The notes beneath the pieces are model-generated. The model was not told the DNA's origin and did no database searches. It saw only the letters and a list, made by a program, of their open reading frames with translations. From NCBI GenBank assembly GCA_039944855.1, contig JBDUXZ010000002.1:62001-126000 (forward strand): a DNA stretch of 64,000 bases. The letters are read 5' to 3'. Shown here in pieces: positions 24,969 through 43,754 of this stretch. Positions within the stretch are counted from its first letter, which is position 1; every line of letters begins with the position of its first letter. Both the position numbers and the translations under genes were made by a program. The stretch comes from Rhodothermales bacterium. Its GTDB lineage: Bacteria > Bacteroidota > Rhodothermia > Rhodothermales > JANQRZ01.

Positions 24969-27900
24969 CTATCGCAGCAGCGTCATCCGCCGCGTCGCCA
25001 CCACGCCGTCCGCCGAGAACCGCGCGACGTAGACGCCACTGGCGAGCCCGCGCGCATCCCACGTCGCGGTGTGCGACCCGGCCTCGAAGCGCCCCTCGGC
25101 CAGCACCGCCACGCGGCGGCCGAGCGCGTCGAACACCTCCAGCCGCACGTCCGAAGCGCGCGGCAGCGCGTACCGGAGCGTGGTCGACGGCGCGAACGGG
25201 TTGGGGTAGTTCGCCTCCAGCGCGGCCTGATCGGGAATCCCGCTCTCGCTCTCATTCGCGACCGCGTTCCCCATCAGCGCCTCGACCCACATGTGCCAGC
25301 CGTCGTCGGCGTTCTGGAACCACGCCTGCGACATGTTATGCCACGTGTTATCGCTCCACAGCTCCCACTCGAACGGTGAGGGGGCGCCGAGCGACTGCGT
25401 GGCGGCGATCGTGAAGTCGTTCGTGCCGTACGGCGCGGCGTACTCGACGGACACGAAGAACGAGGCCGGGACGGCGACCGGGGCGAACCGGAGTTCCGTG
25501 GCCGGCGATGGCGTGGCCGGATCGCCATCGACCTGCGCATCAGCCAGGGTGTAGGTCTGCGAGAACAGCGGACTGCCCTGCGGGCCCGTCGCTGCCGTGC
25601 CGCCGTAGACCCGGAGCGTGTACGACACGAGCGCCGGGGTCGGCGCGCGCGCGCTGAGGTAGACGTCGACGCCTTCGAGCAGGCCGCCGCCCGGCACCTC
25701 GAACGCGACGGCCTTGCCGAGGTCGGTGAATTCGTTCGTGCCGTGGACGAACCCGCCGCCCTGCGTCGTGAAGGCGTTCTGCGTGTCCGTGTCCGTGAGG
25801 TGCGTAAGCGTCCCGCCGCCCGTTCCGCCTCCCTCGACGGTGAGTGTGACGGGCACCGTGAAGGTCGCCTCGTCCGGGTCGTTCGAGGTGATGACGACGG
25901 TGCCGGTGTACGTCCCGGCCTGCAATCCGACCGCGCTCAGTCCGACGGTCACCGTGCTGCTCGCGCCGGGTGTCGTCGTGCCCGAGCCCGGCGTGACGGC
26001 GATCCACGAGGCCCCGCCGCCCGTGTTGAGCGCCGCGTCGAGCTGGAGACGCGGCCGGGTAAGGCCGTTGCGGGAATCCGTGACGGGGACGCCCGTCGAG
26101 GCGATGGCGTCGAGGATTTCGGTGACGCTGGCCTGCGGGCGCTGGCCCTTCATCACGGCCCACGCCCCGGCGACGTGCGGGGCGGCCATCGAGGTGCCGC
26201 TCAGTTCGCCGAAGACGCCGCCGGGCATCGACGACGTGATGGTCTGGCCGGGCGCGAGCAGGTGGAGGCCGGCCGAGCTGTTCGAGAACGGGGAGATCGC
26301 ATCGACGATCGTCCCGCCGGAGCCGTCCTGCGTGGAGCCGACGCTGACGGCCGTCGAGATGCAGGCCGGCGCGCCCATGGCGTTCGTGAAGCTCTCGTTC
26401 CCCGACGCGATGACGGTCGCGATCCCCGCCGCCCGGAGGTTGTCGATGACGGGCTTGAGCGGGTTGTCGTCGCAGGCGCTCGTGAACTGGCCGCCCCCGA
26501 GGCTCATGTTGGCCGAGGCAATAGCGAACGTGTTGCGCTGGCCGTAGACGTACTCGAGCCCGCGCATCTGGTCCGAGGTCGCGGTGAGGGTGCAGGGAGC
26601 CTGGCCGCCGCAGATCTGCGCGTCGAGGATGGTGGTGAAGACCTGCACGGCGATGAGGCTCGCGTCCCGCCCCACGCCGGAGAACGCGGGGCCACGGCCC
26701 ACGGCGATCCCGGCGACGTGCGTGCCGTGGTTGCATCCGTCGACCCCGCACGGGGCCGCTGCGCCGGGCCCGGTCTGCTGGGTCTGCCCGTTCGGGCAGT
26801 TGGACACGGCCACGCCGGCCTGCGACGATGAGAAGCACGCCTCGGCGACGGCCCGCCCGCCGAAGAACGGGTGCCCCGTGTCGGTGCCCGTGTCGAGCAC
26901 GGCGACGGCCTGCCCCGCGCCGGAGAACCCCTGCTGCCACGCCGCGGGCGCCCCGACGATCGCCGTGCTCTCCGCCAGCGACGTGGGGTAGAGCACGTCC
27001 TCGTGTACGTCGTACACGCCGGGGTCGGCGGCGAGGGCGTCGAGCCCGGCGACGTCCACGGTCATCGCGACGTAGGGCACGGTCTCGAAGGTCTTGACGG
27101 AGCGCACGTCGTAGGCGGCGAGCCGGTCCAGCAGGGCCTCCCGCGCCGAGGCGATCCCTGTCCGCTGCCGGTCCACCGCATCGTTCCGGCCCAACTCCCC
27201 TTCGGGCCGGAACGCCGTGTTCAGCCCGACGATCACGGCGACCGAGCCGGTCCGCCGCGCGGTTTCGCGGAGCGCGGCGAAGTCCGAGACCGCCGGAGCC
27301 GTGCCGTAGCGCTCCGCCACCGGCGGCTCAAGCCCGGCAGGCCGATTGGCGGTGGCCGACGCATTCCATGAGAGCGACCCCGCTCCGGTGTTGCCGATCG
27401 TCAGGTTCAGCGTCGTGGTCGCTCCAGCCGCCAGCGTTGCGCCGAGGCTGGCCGGCGTCACCGCGATGTCCGGCACGTTGCCGCCACCGCCGCCCGAATC
27501 GCCGAGGGCGCGGATCACGAACGCGTCTTGTTGCCCGTTCCCGAGGATGTCCCCGAGCGCGGTCCAGTCGTTCGGCGCACTCGTCCCGCTGAAGAAGCAG
27601 CGGCCGGCGTAGTTGCCGGTGCCCTCGTCGTCCGTGCCCATCGGGAACGGGACGTCGAGGAAGCCGACGACGATGAAGAACGATTCCCCCGCCTGGAAGG
27701 TCGGCGGCGCCGGGTCGAAGCTGACCGCGAGGAGTTGGCCGTTGGGCGCGGGCGCGCTCCCCGAGCCGAAGAACAGGAGGTTGCCGCCGGTGGGGCTGTT
27801 CGGCCCGGCCGCATCGTCGTACACGGCGATCGCGAGGTCCTGCGTCCCCGACTCCGTCCGGTATGCGAAGCGGGTGCCCGTAAGCGTGAAGGCCGAGGAC

Positions 27901-28169
27901 GTCGTGAACCGCGTCGCCGCGTAGAACTCCGTCGCCGCGCCGAAGCCGAGGTAGTCGTCCGGCGTCGCGTTCCGGTCGTCGTAGACGATGGAGTCCGGGG
28001 CGAAGCTGGAGGGCGGCGGGGCGGCGAACGCCTTGGTCAGCGGGATGCTGGCATCTGCCGCCCGGATCGACGGCGCCTCCGCGACGTGGTGCTGTGCGCT
28101 AGCGCGGGGAACGAGCGTGAGTAGGAGCGCGAGAGCGACCCCGAGGGCGCGGGCGGTGAGACCGGACAT
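24969..28169 (-). CDS. Secreted subtilisin-like serine peptidase (S8) with T9SS sorting domain
   Basis: The product has 1066 residues. A signal peptide occupies residues 1-25 (ending R-A-S-A-Q). A beta-rich N-terminal region and an Ig-like segment follow, then a propeptide-like part and the S8 domain. The triad is Asp426 (A-V-L-D-T-G), His481 (N-H-G-T-H-V-A-G) and Ser660 (G-T-S-M-A-A-P-H). A further Ig-like repeat precedes the C-terminal 80 residues (N-Y-P-N-P-F-A-P, then L-E-V-F-D-A-L-G-R-R), a type A T9SS sorting domain. It is therefore expected to be exported to the cell surface or medium to degrade proteins, feeding peptide uptake. Confidence 0.93.
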   Translation of the reverse strand: MSGLTARALGVALALLLTLVPRASAQHHVAEAPSIRAADASIPLTKAFAAPPPSSFAPDSIVYDDRNATPDDYLGFGAATEFYAATRFTTSSAFTLTGTRFAYRTESGTQDLAIAVYDDAAGPNSPTGGNLLFFGSGSAPAPNGQLLAVSFDPAPPTFQAGESFFIVVGFLDVPFPMGTDDEGTGNYAGRCFFSGTSAPNDWTALGDILGNGQQDAFVIRALGDSGGGGGNVPDIAVTPASLGATLAAGATTTLNLTIGNTGAGSLSWNASATANRPAGLEPPVAERYGTAPAVSDFAALRETARRTGSVAVIVGLNTAFRPEGELGRNDAVDRQRTGIASAREALLDRLAAYDVRSVKTFETVPYVAMTVDVAGLDALAADPGVYDVHEDVLYPTSLAESTAIVGAPAAWQQGFSGAGQAVAVLDTGTDTGHPFFGGRAVAEACFSSSQAGVAVSNCPNGQTQQTGPGAAAPCGVDGCNHGTHVAGIAVGRGPAFSGVGRDASLIAVQVFTTILDAQICGGQAPCTLTATSDQMRGLEYVYGQRNTFAIASANMSLGGGQFTSACDDNPLKPVIDNLRAAGIATVIASGNESFTNAMGAPACISTAVSVGSTQDGSGGTIVDAISPFSNSSAGLHLLAPGQTITSSMPGGVFGELSGTSMAAPHVAGAWAVMKGQRPQASVTEILDAIASTGVPVTDSRNGLTRPRLQLDAALNTGGGASWIAVTPGSGTTTPGASSTVTVGLSAVGLQAGTYTGTVVITSNDPDEATFTVPVTLTVEGGGTGGGTLTHLTDTDTQNAFTTQGGGFVHGTNEFTDLGKAVAFEVPGGGLLEGVDVYLSARAPTPALVSYTLRVYGGTAATGPQGSPLFSQTYTLADAQVDGDPATPSPATELRFAPVAVPASFFVSVEYAAPYGTNDFTIAATQSLGAPSPFEWELWSDNTWHNMSQAWFQNADDGWHMWVEALMGNAVANESESGIPDQAALEANYPNPFAPSTTLRYALPRASDVRLEVFDALGRRVAVLAEGRFEAGSHTATWDARGLASGVYVARFSADGVVATRRMTLLR

Positions 28170-28320
28170 GGCAGCGACACGTTGTGATAGAGGAATCCGA
28201 GGCCCGAGCCCCGCTTCTCTATCAGGAACGTGAAGCCGCGCTGCGCCGGATCATCCGGCCTCGCTCGTCCCACCATCCACTTCTGGCGTACGGCTCGATG
28301 ACATCGCGCCCGGTGTTTGG

Positions 28321-30858
28321 TTACCGCACCAGCGTCATCTGCCGCGTCGCGACGGATCCGCCCGCGCTGAGCCGCGCGAAGTAGACCCCGCTCGCGAGCC
28401 CGTCGGCGTCCCACGCGACGGTGTGCGAGCCGGCGGCGCGGCGGCCCTCGGCGAGCGTCGCCACGCGACGGCCGGCGGCGTCGAAGACCTCCAGCCGCAC
28501 GTCGCCCGGCCGGTCGAGCTCGAACCCGAGCGTCGTGCGATCGCGGAACGGGTTCGGCGCGTTCTGGCTGAGGCGGAAGCCGGTCGGGGCCGTGTCGGAC
28601 TCGGCGGCCACGGGGTTGAGGACGAGCGGGCGGCGGTAGACCCCGTTCCCGTGCGTCGCCACGCGGAGCGTCCGGTCGCCAGCCGCCACGAGGTCCATCA
28701 CGAGCACGGCCTCGGGCAGCCCATCGCTGAACGCCTCCCACGTCGCGCCCGCGTCGCGCGTGACGAACACGCCCACGTCGTTCCCGACGAACACGGTGTC
28801 GGGCGCGAGCGGGTCGAAGGCGACGGCGTTCGTCGGGGCGTCGGGGAGCGGGCCGGTGACGTCAGTCCACGTCGCGCCAGAGTCCTCGGTTTTAAAGACG
28901 TGCGGCGTGCCGAAGCCGCCCATCGTCACCCACACGGTGGCGTCGTCGGTCGGGTGGACGGCGATGTCGACGACGAAGCGGTCGGGCAGGCCGAGCGTGA
29001 TGTCGGTCCATGCGTCGCCCCCATCGCGGGTCACGAAGAGGCGCGGCGGGCCGGGATTGTCGACGGGATCGCGGAGGAGCGGAGCCGTCGCGACGTAGAC
29101 GACATCCTCGTCGACGGGCGAAACGGCGAGGGCGAGCGGCGGATTCCCGTTCGGGTCCACGTTAGCGCCCCCGTTCGTCGCCGTCCAATTGGTCCCTCGG
29201 TTCGTCGATTTATAGACAATGCTGCGCCCGGCGTAGAGCGTGCTCGGCGCGCTCGGCGCGACGGCATAGGGCGCGATGAACGCGGTCTCGTCGGAGAACG
29301 GCGGCGCAATGCCAGCGGTAAACGAGAAGCCCCCATCGCTTGAGCGGCGGAGGTTGAGGCCCTGCGACGAAGCGTAGGCAATGTCGGGATCGCTCGGGTC
29401 GATGGCCGTCCACGTCCCGTCGCCGCCGAAGACATGGTCCCACGCCTCGCCCTCTTCCATGCGGACGGTGCCGTTGTCCTGCAGCCCGCCGAGCATGTAC
29501 GCTCCGTCCGCGGAGACCGACGTGCCGTTGTAGAACTGCGCCGTCCGCATCCCGAACTCGAGGTTCTCGATCGTGTCGCCGCCGTCCGTCGTGCGGTAGA
29601 CGCCGCCGTCGCCGGCGAGGTACACGATGTCGGGGTCCGTCGGGTGGAACGCGACGGCGTGGTTGTCGGCGTGGATCGGGTTGAGCTGGGTGATGTTCTG
29701 CCCCTCGCCGTTGGAGCGGTACATGTTGACGCCACCGAGGTAGAGCACGTCGGGGTCGAGCGGGTTGACGCCGACGTAGTGGGCGAACCAGCCCTGGAAG
29801 CGGGCATAGTCGAACGTGCTGAGGGTCTCCCACGAATCGCCGCCGTCGGTCGTGCGGACGAGGTAGGTCTGTGTCCCGCCCGAGCTGAAGATGCCGTCGC
29901 CGATGCTGGCGTAGATCGTCTCCGCCTCGGTCGGGTGGCGGCTGAGGAGCACCTTCCCGATGTAACTCGTGGGGAGCCCGTCGGTGACCTGCGCCCACGT
30001 CTCGCCGCCGTCGGTCGTCCGGTAGAACCCGTAGTCCGGCGACTCCTGGTTGCCGCAGACGGCGAGGACGTCGTCGGGGTTGGCGGGGTTCACCGTCACG
30101 TCGGTCCCCATCACCACGTCGAGCGACAGCGTCCACGTCGCGCCGGCGTCGCGGGTGACGTAGATGCCCTCGGTCGTCGCGGCCCACAGCGTGGCGTCGT
30201 CGGTCGGGTCGAAGCGGAGCATCTGCACGCCGCGCTCCTGGTTCCGCGACCAGTCGAGGCTCGTCGCCCACGTCGCGCCGCCGTCCGTCGATTTGAGGAT
30301 GCCCATGCCGTAGCTCCCGCGCGTCGGCCGGTAGACCACGCCCCCCGTCGACTCGCCGTAGCGGTAGACCTCGCCGGTGCCGAGGTAGACCGTGCTCGTG
30401 TCGCCGGGCGCGATCACGACGGCCGAGGCCGCCGTCACGCCGAAGCCGGTCGGGACGCGCTCCCACGCCGCGCCGGTGCCGCCGGTGTACGAACGCCAGA
30501 GCCCGCCGCCCGCCGAGCCGGCCCACACCGACTCCGGCCGCTCGGGGTTGATCGCGAGCGCGAGCGTCCGCCCGCCCACGTTGTCCGGCCCGATGGATTC
30601 CCACACCTCGTCGCCGCCGCCCCGGCTCTCGGCTTCGAGCGCGCGGCGCACGGCCAGCGCCTCGGCCACCCCCTCCGACGGGAGTTCCGTCCCCGGATAC
30701 GCCCGCTGCATCGTCCACATCACGAGGGCTTCGTACGCCCCGGACACCGGCGGACGGGCCGGGTCCTTCTCTTCGGAGTCGGGGCGGAGCAGCCAGAGGG
30801 CCGCCGCGAGGAGAGCGACGATGAGGACGGCGAGCGTGATTCGGGGTGCGTTCGGCAT
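28321..30858 (-). CDS. Secreted BNR/VPS10-type beta-propeller protein with T9SS sorting domain
   Basis: The product has 845 residues from ATG 30858; an open frame to 31056 precedes a clear N-terminal membrane/signal segment (L-A-V-L-I-V-A-L-L-A-A). Many repeats of the type S-x-D-G-G-x-T-W run from about residue 90 to 720, as in sortilin/VPS10 and glycosidase-like BNR propellers. The C-terminus Q-N-A-P-N-P-F-R-D, with L-E-V-F-D-A-A-G-R-R, is a T9SS sorting domain very close to that of the neighbouring peptidase. Enzymatic activity is not evident; binding or glycan-related roles are possible. Confidence 0.88.
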   Translation of the reverse strand: MPNAPRITLAVLIVALLAAALWLLRPDSEEKDPARPPVSGAYEALVMWTMQRAYPGTELPSEGVAEALAVRRALEAESRGGGDEVWESIGPDNVGGRTLALAINPERPESVWAGSAGGGLWRSYTGGTGAAWERVPTGFGVTAASAVVIAPGDTSTVYLGTGEVYRYGESTGGVVYRPTRGSYGMGILKSTDGGATWATSLDWSRNQERGVQMLRFDPTDDATLWAATTEGIYVTRDAGATWTLSLDVVMGTDVTVNPANPDDVLAVCGNQESPDYGFYRTTDGGETWAQVTDGLPTSYIGKVLLSRHPTEAETIYASIGDGIFSSGGTQTYLVRTTDGGDSWETLSTFDYARFQGWFAHYVGVNPLDPDVLYLGGVNMYRSNGEGQNITQLNPIHADNHAVAFHPTDPDIVYLAGDGGVYRTTDGGDTIENLEFGMRTAQFYNGTSVSADGAYMLGGLQDNGTVRMEEGEAWDHVFGGDGTWTAIDPSDPDIAYASSQGLNLRRSSDGGFSFTAGIAPPFSDETAFIAPYAVAPSAPSTLYAGRSIVYKSTNRGTNWTATNGGANVDPNGNPPLALAVSPVDEDVVYVATAPLLRDPVDNPGPPRLFVTRDGGDAWTDITLGLPDRFVVDIAVHPTDDATVWVTMGGFGTPHVFKTEDSGATWTDVTGPLPDAPTNAVAFDPLAPDTVFVGNDVGVFVTRDAGATWEAFSDGLPEAVLVMDLVAAGDRTLRVATHGNGVYRRPLVLNPVAAESDTAPTGFRLSQNAPNPFRDRTTLGFELDRPGDVRLEVFDAAGRRVATLAEGRRAAGSHTVAWDADGLASGVYFARLSAGGSVATRQMTLVR

Positions 30859-30962
30859 CGAGCGGCGGGGTTGATATCTCCAGGGCGAGGTGGAGTTTAC
30901 GGCGCGCCCCCGTCGGTCGCCACCCCTTCTCGCGTGCCCGTGCCCGCTACGGCGTGCGATCG

Positions 30963-32306
30963 CTACGGCACCCGTGAAAGCTGGATCGTCTGCGTCGTCT
31001 CGCCCGCTTCGATCCGCAGGAAGTACGCCCCCGGCGGGAGCGCGGTGGCGTCCCACCCCAGCGTGTGCGCTCCGGCCGAGCGGTCGCCCTCCGCGAGCAC
31101 CATCACCTCGCGGCCGAGCACGTCGTAGACGGCCGCCCGCATCGGCCCTGGCTCGGCGAGGTCGAACCGCACCGTCGCGCCCGCACGGGACGGGTTAGGG
31201 TACACCTCGGCGCGCAGCGTTGGCGCGGGCGCGGCCTCGGCCGACGTCGCCGCATTCGTCATGCGCAGCACGGTCAGCTTCCCGTCGAAGTCGCTCGCGT
31301 AGACGTAGCCGCCCGCCGTGTACGGGAACGCGCCCCACGTCCCGATGAACTCGTCGTCGTCGGTGTCCGGCGTCGTGTCGTAGCGGGCGACCTCGACGGG
31401 GTTGGCCGGGTCCGAGATGTCGACGACGGTGACGCCCGCGCTGTAGTGCGAGAGCACGACGAGGTCGCCCATCACGTGCGCGTTGTGCGCCAGCCCGTTC
31501 GCGCCGAGGTACTCCCCGACGAGTTCGATGTCGCCGAGGTCGCTGATGTCCCACACCTTCACCGTACGCCCCCGCGTCTCCTCCGTCGTGACGACGTAGC
31601 GGCCGTCGCCGCTCGGCCAGATGTTGTGCATGTAGCCGCCGTTCGGGACGGGCTGCCGGGCGAGGAGTTGGGGGTCCTGCTTGTCCGAGACATCCCATAT
31701 CGAGAACGAGGGGTAGAACCCCTCCGCCACGTAGAGCGTGTCGCCGCGCGCGTGCATGTCGTGGCCGTTGGGGAGCGGGACGAGGCCGACTTCCTGCGGG
31801 TCGAGCGGGTCGGCGAGGTCGAGGATGCGGACGCCGCGATACCGCTGGGAGAGCACGTAGGCGTAGCCCGTGACGGCGTCGACGTCCATGTTGTGCGAGC
31901 GGACGTCCTCCGCAGTCGTGAACGCCATCACGAGGTCGGCGCTCTCGGGCAGCCCGCTCAGGTCGACCACCTGCACGCCCTCGTTCGTCCCCCGCATCTC
32001 GGCCACGACGTAGAGCGTCGAGCCGTAGACGACCATGTCGCGGTGGAAGTAGTAGTCGTTCTGCGCCGGCCCCGGAATCGTGTGGAGGATCTCGAGGTCG
32101 GGCACCGAGACGATGGCCGTCCCGTCGGGCACGCCGACGATGGCGTACTCCGCCCCGTCGGGCGCCGTGTAGCCCCACACGTCCGACGTGCCGTTGCCGC
32201 CCGCCGTGACCGGGAATGACACCGTGCCGACGAGGTCGAGCGCGAGATCCTGCGCCACACACGGCAGCGCAGCGGCGAACGCAAGGAGGCAGACGAGGCG
32301 TCTCAC
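30963..32306 (-). CDS. Secreted choice-of-anchor B-like repeat protein with T9SS sorting domain
   Basis: The product has about 447 residues from GTG 32306, directly followed by a signal peptide (L-V-C-L-L-A-F-A-A-A-L-P-C-V-A-Q). Repeats of V-V-D-I-S-D-P-A-N-P-V-E-V-A type form a LVIVD/choice-of-anchor-B beta-propeller. N-G-H-D-M-H and N-A-H-V-M supply conserved histidines. The C-terminus V-Y-P-N-P-S-R-A-G-A, followed by V-Y-D-V-L-G-R-E-V, is a T9SS sorting domain. Its function is unknown; related proteins are surface-exposed in Bacteroidota. It is the first of three consecutive T9SS cargo genes on this strand. Confidence 0.88.
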   Translation of the reverse strand: MRRLVCLLAFAAALPCVAQDLALDLVGTVSFPVTAGGNGTSDVWGYTAPDGAEYAIVGVPDGTAIVSVPDLEILHTIPGPAQNDYYFHRDMVVYGSTLYVVAEMRGTNEGVQVVDLSGLPESADLVMAFTTAEDVRSHNMDVDAVTGYAYVLSQRYRGVRILDLADPLDPQEVGLVPLPNGHDMHARGDTLYVAEGFYPSFSIWDVSDKQDPQLLARQPVPNGGYMHNIWPSGDGRYVVTTEETRGRTVKVWDISDLGDIELVGEYLGANGLAHNAHVMGDLVVLSHYSAGVTVVDISDPANPVEVARYDTTPDTDDDEFIGTWGAFPYTAGGYVYASDFDGKLTVLRMTNAATSAEAAPAPTLRAEVYPNPSRAGATVRFDLAEPGPMRAAVYDVLGREVMVLAEGDRSAGAHTLGWDATALPPGAYFLRIEAGETTQTIQLSRVP

Positions 32307-32634
32307 GGGTCGTGTGCGAAGTTCGGAGGGGGAGGGAACGCAAAGTAAGGCGTCATAACACGATCCGGTTGAGGCGTTGTGGTTGGGAGGGAGGAAAGAC
32401 AGGTGGGGGCTCCGTCTTCGCCGCTCTCCGAAGGTCACCGGGGTCGTGCTCACGACCGGCCACGGACTACGGACCACGGGCGCCGAATCCGGCTCCGGCG
32501 TCGAGGCAGACGCTTACGGGCTACCGGATTCGGGACCATTTTGGTTTTGCCTAAACTTCGCAGGAGCGCGCGGGCGCCCCCCCATCGGAGCGCCGTATAC
32601 TTGGCCTCCTCACCGGCGAACGCGGCCGGTCTGA
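32307..32634. other. Spacer without recognisable gene
   Basis: The spacer lies between the GTG start of the LVIVD-repeat gene and the tRNA promoter. Frames on both strands are short or shadow-like. It probably holds the leftward promoter of the T9SS gene group, but no clear -33/-7 pair was found on that strand. Confidence 0.5.
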
Positions 32635-34366: not shown

Positions 34367-37300
34367 CTACGGCCCCTCCCGCCGCAGCGCCGCGTGCGGG
34401 TGGCCGTAGACGGCGTAGGCCAGCCACGAGGCATCCTCGAACCGCGCCTTCTCGCGCGCCTTCCGCGTCGCCTCCGCGAGCGTGTCGCCGTCGCCGAGCG
34501 CGTCGTAGAGCGCTTCGGTGAACGCCCGCGCCGGCGCGTCGCCCACCGACCACAGCGTGCCGACGAACGCGCCCGCCCCGGCCTGCAGGAACGCCTGCGC
34601 GAACCCGCCGATCTTCGTCAGCGAGAACCCGAGCCGCCCGGCCTGACACGCGTTGACGACGACGAGCGGGCGGTTGCCGTCCTCGCCGACGAGGTTGCCG
34701 TGCTCGGCGACGGTCGTGGCGCTGAGGTAAGCAGGGATCACCGCCCCGTTCTCAACGCGGCCCTCCAGCTTCAGGCTCGCGAGCGTGATGTTGTCGTGCT
34801 CGGCCTCGCCGTGGCAGGCGAAGTGGAGCAGGTCGAACGCGCCGGGCGTGCGGAGCAGCTTGCGGATGGACTGCTGATCCGCATCGACGCGCTGGGCGCC
34901 GAAAGCGTGTTCGAGGTAGCCCGCTTCTTCCTGCGCTTCGGGCAGCACGTCGTCGGGGTGCGGGTAATCGGGGATGACGAAGCGGGCGCGGCCGGGCCGA
35001 AGCCGGAGCGCCTCGGGCGGCCACCCCTCGATGTACGGCGGGAGCCCGTCGTGGAGCCAGCGGACGAGGCCGAACTGCGCGAGGAAGAGGGTCTCATCGG
35101 GGAGCCCGGGCGCGCCGGGCGGCTTGAGGTGGACGAGCTCCCACGGGATGAACGGCTCCGTCGAGAGCACCTGAATGCTCCCGAGCCGATCGCGGTACTT
35201 CCAGAGCAGGCCCTGCAGCTCGTCCGGGAAGAGCCGCGTGAAGAGCGACGCGCCGAGCGCCCGCAGCTCCTCCGTGAAGTCGTCGAGGTCCTGCCCCCCG
35301 CCCAGCCACCGGTCCTCGATCTCCCGGTAGAGGTTGTCGACGTACTCGCGCCGGTCCATCTTTAACGGCGCGCTCACGAACCGCTTCAGCACGGCGCCGG
35401 GGATTTCGAGGTCGAACTCGTAGTAGCTCTCGCCACCCACGTCGCGCTCGTCGATGCGGAGCTGGTTGAGCGGCTCGGCGAGCGGCGGGGCCGACACGCC
35501 GACGCCCTCGGCGCGCACCGGCCGCGCCCCGTCGTCGGGCACGGCGGCGGTGATCTCGACGAGCAGCTTGAGCTTGACGAGGGGCACCTGCCCCTGCCGC
35601 GCCGTGATGTGGACCTCGCCCTCCCCCACGTCCACGGCCCGGAGGTCGAAGTACAGCTCGGCCGGGTCGTTCGGGTTCGGAGGGGGGATCGTCGCTCGTA
35701 GGTCGCCGACGGCTTCGAACCCGCGCCGGGGCCGCACGTCGAGGATGATCGGGCGCTCGGGGTCGACGGCGTCCGACTGCCCGCTCGCCGTCGCCTGCCC
35801 GACGGCTACCGCAATGGCTTCGCGCGCGACGGCGACCATGAGCGTCGCGTCGTGCCCTGCCTGCACGCGCTGCGGCATCTCGGCGTAGAAATGACAGGCC
35901 ACAGGCGCGGGGTCGGCGTGGGGCACGTCGCCAGGGGCCGAAGCGGACTCTTCGTAGTCCCACACTCCGCCGTCATCCAGCGGCGCCATCTCCTCTTCCC
36001 ATGCCCCGCCGTCGTCGGCCGAAGCCATCTCCTCTTCGTATCCCGCTTGTTGCTGCTGTTGCTGCTGTTGCTGCTGTTGCTGCTGTTGCTGCTGTTGCTG
36101 CTGTTGCTGCTGTTGCTGCTGTTGCTGCTGTTGCTGCTGAGGATACGCGACACCCGCCCCCGCGCCCGGATTTCTGCCTCGACGGGTCCCTCCTCGCGTC
36201 GTGCGAGGCGGCGGTGCCGGAGCCGGCGCGGACGGTGCTGACGGAACCGGTGGCGGCGCACTCTCGGCCATCTTCGGCGGCGCGGCACGCTCGGCCAGTT
36301 CCCGGCTCGACAGCGCCGCCGGACGCTCGGCGAGCACCCCGACGGGTCGCCCCTCGTCCAGCACGACGACGCGGCCCGTCGTCGGCCCCGCCGTGTAGTC
36401 GGGCACGTCGGGCAGCGACTGCCCCGCCCGCGCGCTCGGCGACTCTTGAAACTCGTGCATCCCGAGCGCATCGAGCAGCGCTGCATCGGGCGGCGCATCG
36501 CCCGCCATCTCCCGCACTTCCTCGGCCCGGTAGGCGTAGTTCAGCACTCGGTCGCCGTACCCCCGCCGCACGACGACGTAGTCCGCGGGCTCGGCGTCGA
36601 GTTGGTCGAGGACTTCGCCGGCCGTCGTGTCCGACGTCGTCGTGAGGATCGCGGTGTTCACGGCGACGGGCAGGTCCCGCGTCGCGCCCCGGCGCGACGA
36701 GCGGCGGCGCGGCGCACTCGCCGCGAGCGACGGCTCGGGCAGCGCCAGCCACCGCGCGAGCGCCGCGACGACCTCGGGCCGCGTGAAGTAGTTCGTGTGG
36801 TAGACGTGCGGGTTCTTCCCAAGGTCGAGGTGGTCTTTCACGAAGCGCCCCGCGTCGACGTCGATGGCCGTCATTGACGCGGTGTTCACGACGAGGTCGC
36901 TGTCGTCGCGGAAGAGGGCGTCGGTGACGCGGTCGCCGAGGGCGGCGAGGAGGCGAGCGGGAAGCTCGTGCGGCTCGTGATCGCCCGTCAGTTGCGCGTG
37001 GAAGTTGGAGGTGATGGCGCAGTAGCTCGTCCAATCCCGCTCGGGCTGACCGGGCTGCACCTCATTCAGCGTGCGGAGGAACGGGCCGTCCGGCTGCATC
37101 GCGGCGAGGCCGGGCACGGCCCCCTCCGTCACGACTTCCGTCGCGAGATATTTCATGAGCGCGCCGAGGCCCTGCACCAGTTCTTTGAGCAGCGTCGCCA
37201 CGAACGTCGCGGCCGGGACGAGACTGACGGCGCGGAAGACGCCGACGGCGATGTTCGTGTAGAGGTCGACGAACGTGTGCCAGTTCTCGGGGTCGGCGAG

Positions 37301-38347
37301 GCCCGTCCCCGCGTTCGGCGTGCCGACGAAGACGACGCGGCCGAACGTCGGCCGCCACGCTTCGCCGGGGAGGACGAGTTCGACGAGGCTCCGGTACACG
37401 AGCCCGCCCCGGCTGTGCGTCACGACGTCAATCTGGGGCGGGTGCTCGCCCACCGTGCGGAGGCGGCGCAGCAGGTCCTGCGCGTTCGCCTTCGGATCGA
37501 CGCTCAGCGTGGGGTGGTCGAAGCCGAGCACGGCGTCGTACGTCCGCTCCGCTTCGCGGAGGAGGTGCCGCCCCCACGGATACGCGGCGAGCGCTCCGTA
37601 CGCGCCGGCCGTGCTGCTGAACGTGCCGTGGATGAAGAGCAGCAACCGCGCCGGTCGATCCGTCGGCAGCCCGAGCCCGCCGAGCCCATCGAGCCGCCGC
37701 CACTGCGTCGGGTCGCCGCCGTCCATCACGAGGAGGCCCGGCCGGACGTGCTGCTCCAGCGTGCTCATCGCCTTCGCCGCCGCCTTTTTCGCGACGAACC
37801 GGAGGACGTAGAGCTTGGCCTTGTCGAGAATTTTGTCGAGGACGAGGTCTTTGATGAACCCGCGCGTCGCGCGCTCCGGCGGCCCACCCGCAGCCGGCGA
37901 GAGTTCGATCGTGAACCGTACTTCGCGCGGTCCCGAGCCTCCGCTGCGGCGGCGCGGCCCTGCCGGGGTCGGCGGCGCGTCCGGCAGCTTCCACGCATAG
38001 ACCCCGTCCTGCTCGACGAGAACGACGGCCTCCTCCTCTCCGCCGAGTGGCACGTCGACGGCCACGCTCTGCGGCCCCGCCGGACTCGGTCCGCGCCGCG
38101 TCGTCGACGGGCGGGCGGCGGGGAGGTCCATGCTCGTCACGGTGAAGCCCTGCTCTTCGAACGCGGCAGCGACGGCGCTCGCCTCGGCCCCATCGTCGCC
38201 CGCGGCGCCGGCCACGCCCGGCAGCGGGCGGGGAGCGTAGCGATCGCCGCGGCCTCCACCGCGGCGGGTGGGCGGAGCGGCGGGCGCTTCGTAGTCCGAG
38301 GGAAGGGTGATGCGGATGCCGCTCTCGTGCTCGATGATGCTGGACAT
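34367..38347 (-). CDS. Multidomain alpha/beta hydrolase - polyglutamine - CHAT protease protein
   Basis: The product has 1326 residues and no signal peptide. At about 225-500 lies an alpha/beta hydrolase with L-L-L-F-I-H-G-T-F and nucleophile Ser312 in T-H-S-R-G-G. A region at about 555-680, ending in G-R-V-V-V-L-D-E-G-R-P-V-G-V-L, looks CBS-like. A proline-rich linker then leads to 31 consecutive glutamines (residues 737-767). A beta-sandwich segment follows at about 800-930. The C-terminal 270 residues are a CHAT domain, a caspase-like cysteine protease, with His1179 (F-A-C-H-G) and Cys1234 (N-A-C-Q-A-G). It is probably cytoplasmic. CHAT proteins act in bacterial immunity and cell-death systems, so a defence or effector role is plausible but inferred. 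Boundaries are approximate. Confidence 0.85.
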   Translation of the reverse strand: MSSIIEHESGIRITLPSDYEAPAAPPTRRGGGRGDRYAPRPLPGVAGAAGDDGAEASAVAAAFEEQGFTVTSMDLPAARPSTTRRGPSPAGPQSVAVDVPLGGEEEAVVLVEQDGVYAWKLPDAPPTPAGPRRRSGGSGPREVRFTIELSPAAGGPPERATRGFIKDLVLDKILDKAKLYVLRFVAKKAAAKAMSTLEQHVRPGLLVMDGGDPTQWRRLDGLGGLGLPTDRPARLLLFIHGTFSSTAGAYGALAAYPWGRHLLREAERTYDAVLGFDHPTLSVDPKANAQDLLRRLRTVGEHPPQIDVVTHSRGGLVYRSLVELVLPGEAWRPTFGRVVFVGTPNAGTGLADPENWHTFVDLYTNIAVGVFRAVSLVPAATFVATLLKELVQGLGALMKYLATEVVTEGAVPGLAAMQPDGPFLRTLNEVQPGQPERDWTSYCAITSNFHAQLTGDHEPHELPARLLAALGDRVTDALFRDDSDLVVNTASMTAIDVDAGRFVKDHLDLGKNPHVYHTNYFTRPEVVAALARWLALPEPSLAASAPRRRSSRRGATRDLPVAVNTAILTTTSDTTAGEVLDQLDAEPADYVVVRRGYGDRVLNYAYRAEEVREMAGDAPPDAALLDALGMHEFQESPSARAGQSLPDVPDYTAGPTTGRVVVLDEGRPVGVLAERPAALSSRELAERAAPPKMAESAPPPVPSAPSAPAPAPPPRTTRGGTRRGRNPGAGAGVAYPQQQQQQQQQQQQQQQQQQQQQQQQQQQQQQQAGYEEEMASADDGGAWEEEMAPLDDGGVWDYEESASAPGDVPHADPAPVACHFYAEMPQRVQAGHDATLMVAVAREAIAVAVGQATASGQSDAVDPERPIILDVRPRRGFEAVGDLRATIPPPNPNDPAELYFDLRAVDVGEGEVHITARQGQVPLVKLKLLVEITAAVPDDGARPVRAEGVGVSAPPLAEPLNQLRIDERDVGGESYYEFDLEIPGAVLKRFVSAPLKMDRREYVDNLYREIEDRWLGGGQDLDDFTEELRALGASLFTRLFPDELQGLLWKYRDRLGSIQVLSTEPFIPWELVHLKPPGAPGLPDETLFLAQFGLVRWLHDGLPPYIEGWPPEALRLRPGRARFVIPDYPHPDDVLPEAQEEAGYLEHAFGAQRVDADQQSIRKLLRTPGAFDLLHFACHGEAEHDNITLASLKLEGRVENGAVIPAYLSATTVAEHGNLVGEDGNRPLVVVNACQAGRLGFSLTKIGGFAQAFLQAGAGAFVGTLWSVGDAPARAFTEALYDALGDGDTLAEATRKAREKARFEDASWLAYAVYGHPHAALRREGP
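36047..36139. repeat. Microsatellite of ttgctgctg units encoding polyglutamine
   Basis: The 93 bp consist of one ttg followed by ten copies of the 9-bp unit ttgctgctg on the plus strand. On the minus strand these are 31 CAG/CAA glutamine codons inside the CHAT protein gene. Each unit change keeps the frame, adding or removing three glutamines. Slippage could therefore vary linker length between the hydrolase and CHAT halves. Confidence 0.97.
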
Positions 38348-38548
38348 GGGTTCCCGGGTTCAGAATGGACGGTCCGATGAGGTCACTCATCATTCTATTT
38401 TACAAAAGACTACCCCACTACCGCCGCGTAACCTTCATTCTTTGCCCACACCCCCACGAAGCGCGATGACCGCGCCGCTATATTGGCGCGCGGTCCTCTC
38501 TCCTTTGTCCGAACGTCCCTCTCCACTCCTCCTATTCGAACCCCGTCT

Positions 38549-39772
38549 ATGCGCCCTGTCATTACGGGAATCGGGATGATCAGCGCCTTAGGACCGGAGC
38601 GCGATCCCATATGGGAGATGTTGTTGGCGGGCAGGCCGCGCATGGGCGCCATCTCGGCGTTCGAGGCCGCATCGCACGGCATGGAAAACTGCGTCGTCTC
38701 CGAGATCGCGGATCAGGACCTGGAGGCCCGGCTCGATCAGCTGCGCGCGCGCTCGATCACGACGAAGCGGGGCCGGTTCCGCTCGCTCGCGCTGGCCGCA
38801 GCGGCCGAAGCGCTCGACGACGCCGGCTTGCCCGGCGAGGACCCGGAGGACCGCGCCTCGGCCGGCATCGTGATGGGCACGCTCTCCGCCGGCGCCGCCG
38901 AAGTCGAACGCATCGCGCACGCCACGTTCAGCGGCGGGAAACCGAGTGTTGCCGACAACCTGGGCAAGCGGACCAGCATCGTGCTCCAGGATATCGCCCG
39001 GGCCTTCGACCTGAGCGGTCCCGCCCTCGGCGTCGACGCGGCGTGCGCCAGCGGCGCCGTGGCCCTCACGCACGCCTGCCGCCTTGTCGCCACCGGCGCG
39101 CCCTGGTGCCTGGCGGGCGGCGTCGAAGCGTCCATCGTCGCGTCCAACGTCAAGCTGGCCCACGTCCTCGGCATCGTCCCGACCTCGTTCATCGACGAGC
39201 CCCACCGCTCGTCGCGCCCCTTCGATCTCCGACGCGAAGGCTACGTCCCGGCCGAGGGCGCGTGCTTCCTCGTCCTCGAAGACGAAGCGCACGCCCGCCG
39301 GCGCGGAGCCCGCATCTACGCCCGCATCACTGGGTTCGCCGAGCAGACGTACACGGGCCACCCGACGCAGCTCTGTGACACGTTCGCGGAGGCGTTGATG
39401 CACAAAGCTCTCCGCCGCGCCGACGTTCGTGCGGACCAACTGGGCTGGATCAACGCGCACGCCACGTCGACACGCCAGGGCGATATCGCCGAAGCCACGG
39501 CCATCGGCCGGATGGGCGAGGCGGTGTTGTGCTCCGCTCCGAAGTCCGTCACGGGCCACCTGCTCGGCGCGAGCGGGGCCTTCGAAGCGGCGTTCTCGGC
39601 CCTGTCCCTGCACGACCAGGTCATCCCGCCCACCGTCAACCTCGACGACCAGGACGCGCTGTGCCCCGTCCGCTGCGTCCGGGAACGGACCGACGCGGCC
39701 TTCGACTACGTACTCTCGAACTCGCTCGGGTTCGGCGGGATGAGCTGCTCCATCGTCTTCGGACGCGCCTGA
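38549..39772 (+). CDS. Beta-ketoacyl synthase (FabF-like KAS)
   Basis: The product has 407 residues from ATG 38549, where similarity begins (R-P-V-I-T-G-I-G-M-I-S). The thiolase-fold triad is intact: Cys166 in D-A-A-C-A-S-G-A, His304 in N-A-H-A-T-S-T, and His337 in V-T-G-H-L-L-G-A-S-G. Such enzymes join malonyl units to acyl carriers. It lies 60 bp upstream of the acyl-AMP ligase/carrier/acyltransferase fusion. It therefore probably belongs to a specialised lipid or secondary-metabolite pathway and not to primary fatty-acid synthesis. Product unknown. Confidence 0.92.
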   Translation: MRPVITGIGMISALGPERDPIWEMLLAGRPRMGAISAFEAASHGMENCVVSEIADQDLEARLDQLRARSITTKRGRFRSLALAAAAEALDDAGLPGEDPEDRASAGIVMGTLSAGAAEVERIAHATFSGGKPSVADNLGKRTSIVLQDIARAFDLSGPALGVDAACASGAVALTHACRLVATGAPWCLAGGVEASIVASNVKLAHVLGIVPTSFIDEPHRSSRPFDLRREGYVPAEGACFLVLEDEAHARRRGARIYARITGFAEQTYTGHPTQLCDTFAEALMHKALRRADVRADQLGWINAHATSTRQGDIAEATAIGRMGEAVLCSAPKSVTGHLLGASGAFEAAFSALSLHDQVIPPTVNLDDQDALCPVRCVRERTDAAFDYVLSNSLGFGGMSCSIVFGRA

Positions 39773-39832
39773 CCCTCCCGGCACCCGCGACACCATCGTG
39801 CCGCTCCGTAGCCGTGCGAGCCCTCGTTTCCC

Positions 39833-42763
39833 ATGCTGCCCCTCCAAGCGCACCCTCTCCGACCCCCGCCGGGCGTAGGCGTCCTGCCGGGGCGCTCGAT
39901 GGTCGAGGTCTTCCTGAACCGGGTGGAGCAGGCGCCGCAGTACCGTCCGCTCCTCTTCTTGCAGGAGGACGGCACGACGGAGTCCACCCCTCTCGGCCAG
40001 CTTCACGAGGAGGCCCTGCACTACGCCCGGAGCCTGCGTGCCCGAGGCGTCGCGCGGGGCGACCTGGTCATCCTCGTGTTCCCTCACTCGGGCGACCTCA
40101 TCACGGCCTTCTTGGCCACGCTGTACCTAGGCGCGCTCCCGGCCATCGCCCCGTATTTCAACCCGCAGGCGCCCCTCGACGTGTACCAGGGGCAGGTCCA
40201 GAAGCTGGTAGCCTCCGTGGGCGCGCGTGCCGTCGCAACCTCGGCCGCGCTCGAACGAACCCTGATCCCGTTCCTCGCCGAGACCGGCTGCGAGGTGGTG
40301 GGACTCGCTGGGGAGCAGACGCCTGCGGACCCCGCGCCGCTCCACCCATACCTCGCCGCCGGACACGAGACCGCATACGTGCAATTCTCCAGCGGGACGA
40401 CCAGCCTGCCCAAAGGGGTGATGCTGTCCCACGAGGCCGTGCTGGAGTACTTGCGCACCTCGTGTGACACGTTCGCCTATACCGAGGACGACGTCACCGT
40501 GGGCTGGCTCCCGCTGTACCACGACATGGGGCTGGTCACCCAGGTTCTGACACCGCTGCTGTCGGGCGTGCCCTCGGTGCTCATCTCGCCGTTCCACTGG
40601 ATGCGCCGTCCCGAAGCCCTGCTGTCGGCCATCGACCGGTTCCGGGGCACGATCAGCTGGATGCCCAACTTCGCCTTCAGCTACTGCGTGCGGCGTACGC
40701 AGCGGCGCGACCTGACAGGCTTGGACCTCAGCAGCTGGCGCATCCTGGGCTGCGGCTCCGAGCCCATCCAAGCCGAGAGCCTGCACCGCTTCGCCGATCG
40801 GTTTGCGCCCTTCGGGTTCCGGCGCTCCGCGCTCCTGGCGGGATACGGGATGGCGGAGAACGTCGCCGGCATCACCTTCTCCCCGCTCGACCGGGAGCCG
40901 GACGTGGAGTGGGTCTCCGTGCCCGCTCTGCAGCAGCAACGAGCGGTTCCGGCCACGCGAGGCGGGGGCGACACCGTGGCCCTCGTCGGATGCGGGTACC
41001 CCAAACCCGGCATCACGCTGCGCATCACGGACGAAGCCGGTCAGCCTGTGCCGGAGCGCCAAGTCGGGGAAGTGTTCGTCCAGAGTCCGTGCCTCTTCGA
41101 GGGCTATCTCCGGCAGCCGGACGTGACGGAGGCTGCCTTCCACGGGGACTGGTTTCGCACGGGGGACCTGGGATATCTCGCTGAGGGGCAGCTCTTCCTG
41201 TGCGGACGCAAGAAGGACCTGATCATCGTGGGCGGCAGTAACGTGCACCCCGAGCACATCGAAGCCGCCGCGCGCGCGGCCCTGGGCGCGCAGGCGGGCC
41301 GGCTGGTCGCCTTCGGCGTGCCGGACGAGCGGGCTGGCACCGAGCGGCCCGTTCTGGTGTGCGAGGCGGCACAGCGCCTTCCCGATGCCGAGCGCGACGC
41401 GTTGGCGCAGCGGGTGCGCCAGCGGGCGTTCGACGAGCTAACGATCGCGCTGGGCGAGGTCTGCTTCGTCGACAAGGGCTGGATCGCCAAGACGACGAGC
41501 GGGAAGCTGGCGCGCGCGGCCAGCCGGCAGAAGTACCTCGGGCTGCGAGAGGATCGCGACGTCTCCCGATCCGAAGGGCCGCTCGACACGGCGCCGGCCG
41601 GGTCGCCGCAGGTGCTCGAACGGCAGCTGCAAACGCTGTTCGAAACCCAGCTCGGCGTCCACCCCATCGACCCCAGCGACAACCTCTTCACCGTCGGCGG
41701 CGACTCGATCCAGATCATGAGTGCGCTGGCGGAGATCGAGGCCCGCACGGGCCGGGACGTGCCACTCGAAGCCTGGATGCAGGACCCTACGATCGCGCAC
41801 TTGGTGACGCTGCTCCGGCAGCAGTCCCTCATCGATCCCGCTTCCCCCGACGGTCCGGCGTCACCCGGTGATGCCCTTCCCGCTCATCCGCCCAGGCATC
41901 TCAAAGAGTTCGCTCGCCGGGTGATCGTGGCCTGTCTGCCGTACCCGGTCGGTGCCCGGCTCGTCGCGCGCTTCTTCGGCCAGCCGATGGTGCAACGGCT
42001 CCTGTTTCGTGACGAGGTGCGATTCCTGCGTCAGTTCTACCAGTTGATCGAGCAGCCGCTCGTGGACGAGGCCGCGTTCATCCACCAGGCCCTCACGTTC
42101 CGGAGGGGCCGTCTCTGGCGCATCGCTGGCCGCGTCCGGGCTACGCCGGAGGACATGAACCGCTGGGGCGAGGTCGTGGGGTGGCCCCGCTTCCAGCGCG
42201 CCTACGAGCAGGGGCGCGGGGTCGTGCTCGTGCATGCCCACACGCTCTCCCTCTCCTTCGCGCGGCGTGTTCTCGAGCGACTGATGCCCTCCGATCTCCG
42301 CGCGCTCGTCAGCGTGGCCGTGGCGGAGGGCGATCTGACCGACGTAGAGCGGGAGGCCGCCCTGCAGCAGCGCTACGTAGAGCAACTGTACACGTGTCAG
42401 AAAACGCTGGAGCGGGGCGGCATCGTCAGCATCGCGGGGGACGATCGCTATGGGGCGAGCCGAGGCGTGACCGTGCCCTTCCACGGCCGGCAGCGCGCGT
42501 TCAAAACGGGCTTCGCCCATCTCGCCGTGGCGACGGGCGCGCCGGTCCTCCCCGTCTTCTCATCCTCCGACCTGACGGGGAGGACGACGATCGAATTCGG
42601 CGAGCCGCTGGCCTACGCCGATCAGGCTCCCGACGAGCAGGTCGACGCTCTGGTCAGGGCCTACGCAGCCTATCTCAAAGAGAAGTGGAGGGGAGGCGCC
42701 GCGAACGTTCCCCCTGCCAAGATGCGCTACCACCAGGCGCTTCCCCCCTCGGCGGCTCCGTGA
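39833..42763 (+). CDS. Trifunctional fatty acyl-AMP ligase - acyl carrier protein - LpxL-like acyltransferase
   Basis: The product has 976 residues in three parts. Residues ~20-565 form a FAAL-type adenylation domain: Q-F-S-S-G-T-T-S-L-P-K-G, L-P-L-Y-H-D-M-G-L, G-Y-G-M-A-E, W-F-R-T-G-D, R-K-K-D-L-I-I-V, and a terminal T-S-G-K-L-A-R lysine. Residues ~590-665 form a carrier domain with phosphopantetheine Ser625 in G-G-D-S-I-Q-I. Residues ~690-960 resemble lysophospholipid/lipid A acyltransferases (G-I-V-S-I-A-G-D-D-R, then V-P-F-H-G-R-Q-R-A-F-K-T-G). The order suggests that a fatty acid is activated, loaded on the carrier, and transferred to an acceptor on one polypeptide. The acceptor is unknown. 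Confidence 0.85.
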   Translation: MLPLQAHPLRPPPGVGVLPGRSMVEVFLNRVEQAPQYRPLLFLQEDGTTESTPLGQLHEEALHYARSLRARGVARGDLVILVFPHSGDLITAFLATLYLGALPAIAPYFNPQAPLDVYQGQVQKLVASVGARAVATSAALERTLIPFLAETGCEVVGLAGEQTPADPAPLHPYLAAGHETAYVQFSSGTTSLPKGVMLSHEAVLEYLRTSCDTFAYTEDDVTVGWLPLYHDMGLVTQVLTPLLSGVPSVLISPFHWMRRPEALLSAIDRFRGTISWMPNFAFSYCVRRTQRRDLTGLDLSSWRILGCGSEPIQAESLHRFADRFAPFGFRRSALLAGYGMAENVAGITFSPLDREPDVEWVSVPALQQQRAVPATRGGGDTVALVGCGYPKPGITLRITDEAGQPVPERQVGEVFVQSPCLFEGYLRQPDVTEAAFHGDWFRTGDLGYLAEGQLFLCGRKKDLIIVGGSNVHPEHIEAAARAALGAQAGRLVAFGVPDERAGTERPVLVCEAAQRLPDAERDALAQRVRQRAFDELTIALGEVCFVDKGWIAKTTSGKLARAASRQKYLGLREDRDVSRSEGPLDTAPAGSPQVLERQLQTLFETQLGVHPIDPSDNLFTVGGDSIQIMSALAEIEARTGRDVPLEAWMQDPTIAHLVTLLRQQSLIDPASPDGPASPGDALPAHPPRHLKEFARRVIVACLPYPVGARLVARFFGQPMVQRLLFRDEVRFLRQFYQLIEQPLVDEAAFIHQALTFRRGRLWRIAGRVRATPEDMNRWGEVVGWPRFQRAYEQGRGVVLVHAHTLSLSFARRVLERLMPSDLRALVSVAVAEGDLTDVEREAALQQRYVEQLYTCQKTLERGGIVSIAGDDRYGASRGVTVPFHGRQRAFKTGFAHLAVATGAPVLPVFSSSDLTGRTTIEFGEPLAYADQAPDEQVDALVRAYAAYLKEKWRGGAANVPPAKMRYHQALPPSAAP

Positions 42764-42884
42764 GGAGACGGCTGCCCCGCCCGCCGGTCCCTTTTGCCCG
42801 CATCTCCACGGAGCGCAGCGACCCCGCCGCGCCGCGCCGCGTAGCTTCGGTTCGCATCCTCTTCCCGGCCCGTTCTCCTCTCTT

Positions 42885-43754
42885 ATGCGCCCCGCTCTCC
42901 GCGACCTGCTCGACCTCCTCGACCTCGAAAAGATCGAAGAGAACATCTTCCGTGGCTTCAACCGCAACCTCGGCTCGAAGCGCGTCTTCGGCGGGCAGGT
43001 GCTCGCGCAGGCGCTCGTCGCGGCGGCCCGGACGGTCGAGCCGGACCGCGTGGCGCACTCGCTCCACGCCTACTTCATCCTCCCCGGTGACATCGAGGCC
43101 CCGCTCGTCTACGACGTGGACCGCATCCGCGACGGCGGCTCCTTCACGACGCGGCGCATCCGCGCGGTGCAGCACGGCCGGCCGATCTTCAACATGTCGG
43201 CCTCGTTCCAGCGCGTCGAGGACGGGCACGAGCACCAGACGACGATGCCCGACGTGCCCGGACCCGACGGCCTCGCCTCGGAGATCTCCCTCATCCGCGC
43301 GATTGCCGACCGCATCCCGGAGCCCCTCCGCGCGACCTACACCCAGGACCGCCCGTTCGAGTTCAGGCCCGTCGATCCGGTGAACCCCTTCGCCCCCGAG
43401 CAGCGCCCGGCCGAGCACGCCGTGTGGTTCCGCGCCGTCGACGCCCTGCCGGACGACCTCGCCGTCCACCAGAGCCTCCTCGCCTACGCCTCCGACCACG
43501 GCCTCCTGCCCACGGCACTCCGCCCGCACAGCCTCTCGTGGCTCCAGCCCGACCTCCAGATCGCCAGCCTCGACCACGCGATGTGGTTCCACCGCCCCTT
43601 CCGCGCCGACGAGTGGCTGCTCTACGTGACGGAGAGCCCAACGGCGTCCGGCGCGCGCGGCTTCACGCGCGGCTCGGTCTACACCCAGGCGGGCGCGCTC
43701 GTCGCCACCGTGACGCAAGAAGGGCTGATGCGCCTGCGTGAACCGAAGGGATAA
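42885..43754 (+). CDS. tesB: Acyl-CoA thioesterase II
   Basis: The product has 289 residues with a double hotdog fold. The TesB pattern G-S-K-R-V-F-G-G-Q-V-L-A-Q-A-L and H-S-L-H-A-Y-F-I-L-P-G-D lies in the first half. D-H-A-M-W-F-H-R-P-F-R-A-D-E-W-L, with the catalytic aspartate region, lies in the second. It hydrolyses acyl-CoA to free fatty acid. It follows the acyltransferase fusion by 121 bp on the same strand and could supply or recycle fatty acids for that pathway, or simply be a housekeeping neighbour. Confidence 0.93.
   Translation: MRPALRDLLDLLDLEKIEENIFRGFNRNLGSKRVFGGQVLAQALVAAARTVEPDRVAHSLHAYFILPGDIEAPLVYDVDRIRDGGSFTTRRIRAVQHGRPIFNMSASFQRVEDGHEHQTTMPDVPGPDGLASEISLIRAIADRIPEPLRATYTQDRPFEFRPVDPVNPFAPEQRPAEHAVWFRAVDALPDDLAVHQSLLAYASDHGLLPTALRPHSLSWLQPDLQIASLDHAMWFHRPFRADEWLLYVTESPTASGARGFTRGSVYTQAGALVATVTQEGLMRLREPKG

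Follow-up and report, generated by a model that had tools for sequence, protein, structure and literature searches.

A single gene joins a hydrolase and a CHAT domain

Within a 64,000-nucleotide stretch of a Rhodothermales bacterium genome (contig JBDUXZ010000002.1, positions 62,001 to 126,000; hereafter the window), a single open frame on the minus strand at 34367–38347 encodes a 1326-residue protein in which a predicted alpha/beta hydrolase and a CHAT domain share one chain. Its Pfam domains follow the order DUF7362-DUF7379-TCAD7-polyglutamine (poly-Q)-DUF7363-CHAT, with all five domains above their curated cut-offs (Table 1), and NCBIfam profiles gave no meaningful match to the protein. Because its homologues are full-length and 38–47% identical across both halves, a chance frame is excluded. 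An original prediction, made from the DNA letters alone, had placed one gene here, with a hydrolase nucleophile at Ser312 and CHAT catalytic residues at His1179 and Cys1234, and the open frame, the homologues and the invariance of these residues bear it out. The gene is real and, judged from sequence, both predicted enzymes have active sites that are intact on paper.

Table 1. Features of the gene in window coordinates; residue numbers refer to the 1326-residue protein.
Feature	Position	Strand	Basis or remark
Whole gene, 1326 residues	34367..38347	-	Open frame, Pfam domains, full-length homologues
DUF7362, N-terminal domain, residues 11-169	37841..38317	-	Pfam E 3.1e-15
DUF7379 alpha/beta hydrolase, Pfam residues 236-428, fold on to ~534	37064..37642	-	Pfam E 1.4e-67; lipase matches
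Ser312, nucleophile in THSRGG	37412..37414	-	Invariant in hydrolase alignments A4 and A6
Hydrophobic helical insert in hydrolase, residues 366-405	37133..37252	-	Candidate lid or membrane-contact element
Asp484, candidate catalytic acid in [N/S]DLVV	36896..36898	-	Invariant in alignment A4; present in most DUF7379-peptidase fusions
His517, candidate catalytic His	36797..36799	-	Invariant in alignments A4 and A6
TCAD7, CBS-like, residues 564-671	36335..36658	-	Pfam; sub-threshold CBS match
Poly-Q, exactly 31 Gln, residues 737-767	36047..36139	-	Perfect 9-bp tandem repeat, 10.2 copies
Imperfect acidic 39-bp tandem repeat adjoining poly-Q	35958..36037	-	Repeat analysis
DUF7363, Ig/macroglobulin-like beta-sandwich, residues 822-928	35564..35884	-	Pfam; Foldseek
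CHAT peptidase, Pfam residues 1135-1302	34442..34945	-	Pfam E 1.7e-20; Foldseek
His1179, CHAT catalytic His	34811..34813	-	Invariant in aligned relatives, alignments A5 and A7 included
Cys1234, CHAT catalytic Cys	34646..34648	-	Invariant in alignments A5 and A7

Structure prediction and profile searches, which the original prediction had proposed as checks, returned lipase and CHAT/separase folds. In the N-terminal half, DUF7379 (PF24096) scores 227.8 bits against a Pfam cut-off of 33, and a profile of this part retrieves solved lipases. The structure was modelled as two pieces, residues 1–690 (mean predicted local distance difference test score [pLDDT] 56, with core strands at 80–90) and residues 800–1326 (mean pLDDT 66). 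In Foldseek searches the first piece, of moderate confidence, matched MAJ1, BlEst2 and the GPI-deacylase PGAP1 (E about 1e-4 to 1e-3) along with other alpha/beta hydrolases, suggesting a lipase/esterase-type fold for the DUF7379 part. Ser312, Asp484 and His517 are unchanged in an alignment of eight divergent DUF7379 proteins (A4); this is the pattern of a Ser-Asp-His triad, in which Asp484 and His517, not named in the original prediction, are the best candidates beside the serine. The modelled hydrolase also contains helices at 353–374 and 378–405, where local confidence is low. Residues 366–405 form the most hydrophobic stretch of the whole protein and may serve as a lid or membrane contact, although the model is poor in this region. 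The N-terminus, inspected by eye, does not resemble a signal peptide, so that the protein is presumably cytoplasmic.

In the C-terminal half, the CHAT match (PF12770) reaches 74.1 bits against a curated cut-off of 24. The best Foldseek match of the second piece is an activated SAVED-CHAT structure (8tl0, E 2.8e-8), followed by matches to the CHAT anti-sigma factor DdvA, separases and caspase-7; the DdvA structures 8rot and 8rw5 are among the top matches by both fold and sequence. The model thus assigns the CHAT domain a caspase/separase fold, and with its His/Cys pair intact the domain is a predicted peptidase expected to cleave protein. Within this model, DUF7363 matches immunoglobulin/macroglobulin-type sandwiches of complement and CARDB domains, in agreement with the beta-sandwich expected at this position.

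A CBS-like segment and a glutamine run had likewise been expected in the linker. The former corresponds to TCAD7, for which the CBS profile match is sub-threshold (E 0.011) and the model shows a CBS-like beta-alpha-beta-beta-alpha order of secondary structure; 'CBS-like' therefore appears a fair description, albeit an unproven one. TCAD7 occurs above cut-off in only one copy in the window's genome, with no homotypic partner; on this ground, the idea that it serves as an adaptor pairing homotypically with a ternary system elsewhere was rejected. None was found in 386 cyanobacterial genomes, where ternary systems are common, but the controls of that search also gave nothing, leaving the absence unproven. 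The run of 31 glutamines is present exactly as described. It is missing from every homologue aligned, so that the window copy alone carries the expansion, and the linkers of the Noviherbaspirillum and Trueperaceae homologues are much shorter and of unrelated sequence. A perfect 9-bp repeat with no counterpart in homologues indicates a local repeat expansion outside the conserved mechanism, of a length that likely varies between strains. The run was accordingly rejected as a conserved functional linker, and the idea that it forms a conserved cut site fails for the same reason.

The hydrolase-peptidase pairing recurs in unrelated bacteria

A profile scan of other genomes for the same architecture and its neighbours, as had been proposed, recovered the whole architecture in only two other genomes, both with invariant catalytic residues: Noviherbaspirillum aridicola (L020) and a Trueperaceae metagenome-assembled genome (L021). 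Both proteins have the same five-domain order, with TCAD7 below cut-off in the former and DUF7362 below cut-off in the latter. A third homologue, from Pelodictyon (L007/L016/L019), lacks the hydrolase and keeps a weak DUF7362 match (30% identity). DUF7363 exceeds its cut-off in 2 of the 396 genomes scanned from the window's phylum, in 1 of 369 from the class to which Noviherbaspirillum belongs and in 1 of 111 from the Trueperaceae phylum, the starting genome being counted each time. The full architecture is thus infrequent and patchily spread, and it is conserved in three phyla. It was not found in G001/G002, the other two genomes from the window's family; since the flanking ketosynthase has only 32–33% identical paralogues there, an empty site cannot be demonstrated by synteny. 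No viral homologue of the protein was found. Two further candidates (G390 and G278) were rejected as relatives of the whole protein, their sub-threshold DUF7363 matches lying, by eye, inside large alpha-2-macroglobulin-like proteins.

The pairing itself is considerably broader than the full architecture. Proteins joining DUF7379 to either CHAT or a C14 caspase are found in Bacteroidota, Pseudomonadota, Deinococcota and Cyanobacteriota. Fusions to CHAT occur in Noviherbaspirillum, Trueperaceae, G257, Ruegeria (966 residues), Paracoccus, Azotobacter and several Bacteroidota; the Paracoccus and Azotobacter proteins, of about 1790 residues, include a second, LCAT-like hydrolase, and some DUF7379-CHAT proteins sit on plasmids, annotated merely as 'CHAT domain-containing protein'. 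Fusions to C14 occur in the window's own genome (L010:14900-18436), in G283, in G180 and, with the order reversed, in Coleofasciculus. The G257 protein comes from the same taxonomic order as the window, and its residues 9–525 are 40% identical to the window protein; its C-terminal part is a CHAT of another subtype, nearest to the 1800-residue family, with TCAD7 and DUF7363 unmatched. Retention of the N-terminal half beside a different CHAT indicates that the CHAT domain was swapped and the combination nonetheless preserved. Some DUF7379 proteins, secreted ones (L044, L045) among them, have no peptidase. The most economical reading of these sequences is that hydrolase and caspase-superfamily peptidase act as a unit put together again and again in evolution, and such reassembly in unrelated bacteria suggests that the two enzymes probably work together.

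A Hymenobacter plasmid carries a CHAT gene, a possible alpha/beta hydrolase gene and a second CHAT gene consecutively (L013:3301-8248). Its 422-residue hydrolase was rejected as a split-gene form of DUF7379 because it matches Abhydrolase_6 only weakly, below cut-off, and is not significantly similar to the window protein.

Genomic neighbourhoods

The window gene is flanked by genes for cytochrome c554, transfer RNAs, a ketosynthase, an acyl-ligase, a thioesterase and queuosine functions. At 38483–43754, divergent from it, a ketosynthase, a 976-residue ligase-carrier-acyltransferase fusion (AMP-binding, PP-binding and Lip_A_acyltrans) and an acyl-CoA thioesterase are encoded consecutively. On the minus strand at 24969–32477 lie consecutive subtilase, BNR/sortilin-like and LVIVD-repeat genes with type IX-like sorting tails. 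The secreted subtilase (24969–28169), 6 kb downstream, was considered as a partner like the Pelodictyon and Trueperaceae subtilases and rejected on account of its type IX-type sorting tail and the several intervening genes. The GC content of the gene (0.70–0.72) equals that of its surroundings, giving no sign of recent import by base composition. The original prediction had seen no partner gene, and within the window this holds, with none among nine neighbouring genes; it does not extend to the homologues, which adjoin subtilase, caspase, zincin or second CHAT genes.

In Pelodictyon, genes for CHAT, subtilase, caspase and then a 412-residue protein without a Pfam match lie on one strand (L016:71-5773), and the row of three peptidases is a possible protease cascade. 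In Trueperaceae, a subtilase and an astacin-like zincin diverge from the homologue gene; the two subtilases show no detectable kinship by blastp at 1e-3. Upstream of the Noviherbaspirillum homologue, at a distance of about 2 kb, a second CHAT gene (L020:6676-7958) carries an in-frame TAG stop in mid gene, with decay, error and recoding not told apart. Over its C-terminal part this gene shares 41% identity with a CHAT gene that neighbours the caspase-hydrolase fusion in the genome of the window. That second own-genome locus (G000:C3; L010:14900-20000 and L011:1-3785) encodes the 1178-residue C14-DUF7379 fusion together with a PKD/OmpA protein; it also holds two CHAT genes, of which one has a VHL-beta match at its C-terminus, and about 12 kb away there is a site-specific recombinase.

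Among other relatives, the DUF7379-CHAT gene of a Ruegeria pomeroyi megaplasmid (L012:6638-13442) lies 36 bp upstream of a SIR2 and PtuA-like ATPase gene; with a third gene of unassigned function and an adjoining IS5 element, this locus is a candidate defence operon. A 1792-residue relative (G066) adjoins ThsB-TIR and nSTAND1 genes, and the Azotobacter relative lies inside a restriction-modification region. The neighbourhoods of relatives point to conflict systems, with defence itself unproven.

Comparison with described systems

Kaur et al. (2020) reported that, in VMAP systems, an alpha/beta-hydrolase gene invariably adjoins the caspase-superfamily domains, and inferred that the two operate together (PMC7159879). 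The window protein resembles these MoxR-vWA ternary systems in pairing a caspase-superfamily peptidase with an alpha/beta hydrolase, here on one chain, and in carrying TCAD7, which Pfam named after the ternary complexes. It differs in being single-chain, in having CHAT instead of a classical caspase and in having no MoxR, vWA or VMAP among its nine neighbours. By its domain content, the protein is a single-chain variant of the described hydrolase-caspase pairing. The label of undescribed effector in the original prediction thus stands in part: the protein looks like an effector unit, but DUF7362, DUF7379 and DUF7363 are already in Pfam as unnamed families and the pairing has been reported in VMAP systems (PMC7159879). 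We found no literature naming DUF7379, DUF7363 or the single-chain form in a search that covered sources outside subscription journals.

The nearest likenesses are the Noviherbaspirillum and Trueperaceae proteins, identical in domains and order, the poly-Q being confined to the window copy. The plasmid DUF7379-CHAT proteins share the placement of hydrolase and CHAT on one chain. The C14-DUF7379 fusions (own genome, G283, G180 and Coleofasciculus) combine the same hydrolase family with a caspase-superfamily peptidase, but with C14 in place of CHAT and another order or linker; in the own genome and G180, unfused CHAT genes lie nearby. Csx29, a TPR-CHAT protease of the type III-E CRISPR (clustered regularly interspaced short palindromic repeats) 'Craspase', cuts Csx30 once target RNA triggers it and depends on its His/Cys pair to do so (PMC10028731). 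The CHAT fold and His/Cys dyad are common to Csx29, SAVED-CHAT and the window protein, and SAVED-CHAT also provides the best structural match of the CHAT half. The window protein differs from both in having no TPR or SAVED sensor and in carrying a hydrolase on the chain; no TPR repeat was matched by Pfam and no Cas gene lies among the nine neighbours. Borvo (BovA), the best PADLOC match, is likewise a single-gene, CHAT-containing defence protein, but just about 130 CHAT residues match (22 bits). No hydrolase is known from BovA.

Proposed mechanism and alternatives

We consider it an even chance that the protein is a cytoplasmic single-chain conflict or cell-death effector in which a DUF7379 lipase/esterase is coupled to a regulated CHAT switch; judged from sequence, a self-killing, abortive-infection or anti-phage response is its most likely role. 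The DUF7363-CHAT half would stay inactive until a trigger, upon which CHAT would cut a protein bond in its own chain or in a partner. The cut would release or activate the N-terminal hydrolase, and the freed hydrolase would damage a lipid or ester substrate so that growth stops. In this scheme we infer the common pathway, the protease-over-hydrolase direction, the trigger, the substrate and the cell-death outcome; the hydrolase may be controlled by self-cleavage, partner cleavage or allostery. Both catalytic sets are invariant and the pairing has been re-made with CHAT and with C14. Repeated fusion, the co-occurrence reported by Kaur et al. (PMC7159879), the defence-type neighbours of some relatives and the precedent of Csx29 (PMC10028731) together argue for a conflict effector. 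Several points weigh against this interpretation: none of the flanking genes is defence-like; PADLOC yields nothing stronger than a weak match to part of BovA (21.9 bits, positions 546–668 of 711); confidence in the two models is moderate (mean pLDDT 56 for one and 66 for the other), and they do not display the relative placement of the halves; the hydrolase-less Pelodictyon homologue shows the CHAT half to be capable of acting with no hydrolase fused to it; and for every family member the effector role is a prediction.

The alternatives differ chiefly in what CHAT cuts. It is possible, though less likely than not, that the chain holds two effectors, with CHAT cleaving partners in trans, for example in a protease cascade, and the hydrolase acting as an independent second weapon. 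The subtilase and caspase beside the Pelodictyon homologue, the subtilase and zincin beside the Trueperaceae homologue, and the second CHAT genes near the Noviherbaspirillum homologue and the own-genome caspase-hydrolase gene would fit such an arrangement, but the window gene has no such neighbour and the two subtilases are mutually unrelated at the threshold used. More doubtful is the mechanism suggested in the original prediction, a zymogen in which CHAT cuts its own chain within the 140-residue linker (about residues 672–813) and frees the hydrolase without a partner. This proposal draws on the two enzymes sharing a chain with a long low-complexity linker, on the Pro-, Gly-, Gln- and acid-rich stretches exactly between the modules and on the lack of a partner gene nearby. 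The linker is unconserved, however, and much shorter and unrelated in homologues, so that a conserved cut would have to lie elsewhere; caspase-hydrolase fusions show reversed order or other spacing, and known CHAT enzymes cut partners (PMC10028731). The boldest version, a one-gene caspase-lipase suicide device in which a triggered, self-cleaving CHAT unleashes a membrane-attacking lipase with no partner at all, its pieces exchanged among unrelated bacteria, we regard as unlikely.

A regulatory or envelope-stress role, with CHAT acting as a signalling regulator as Myxococcus DdvA may do and the hydrolase sensing or editing lipid, seems more unlikely still. The DdvA structures among the top matches and the lipid-metabolism genes in the flanks speak for it, but DdvA is a transmembrane anti-sigma factor, the window protein shows no membrane anchor or sigma-binding domain, and the patchy distribution is unlike that of a core regulator.

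Caspase-like proteases are widespread in bacterial immunity, and their targets are, to our knowledge, mostly not known. Independent fusions of CHAT and C14 to a lipase-like enzyme name the hydrolase as a likely partner of the protease. The published inference that the two operate jointly can thereby be put to a direct test in E. coli using only one gene. If a regulated CHAT switch does control the hydrolase, proteolysis-controlled lipid attack would be added to the known outputs of bacterial caspases, alongside gasdermin pores and Csx30 release.

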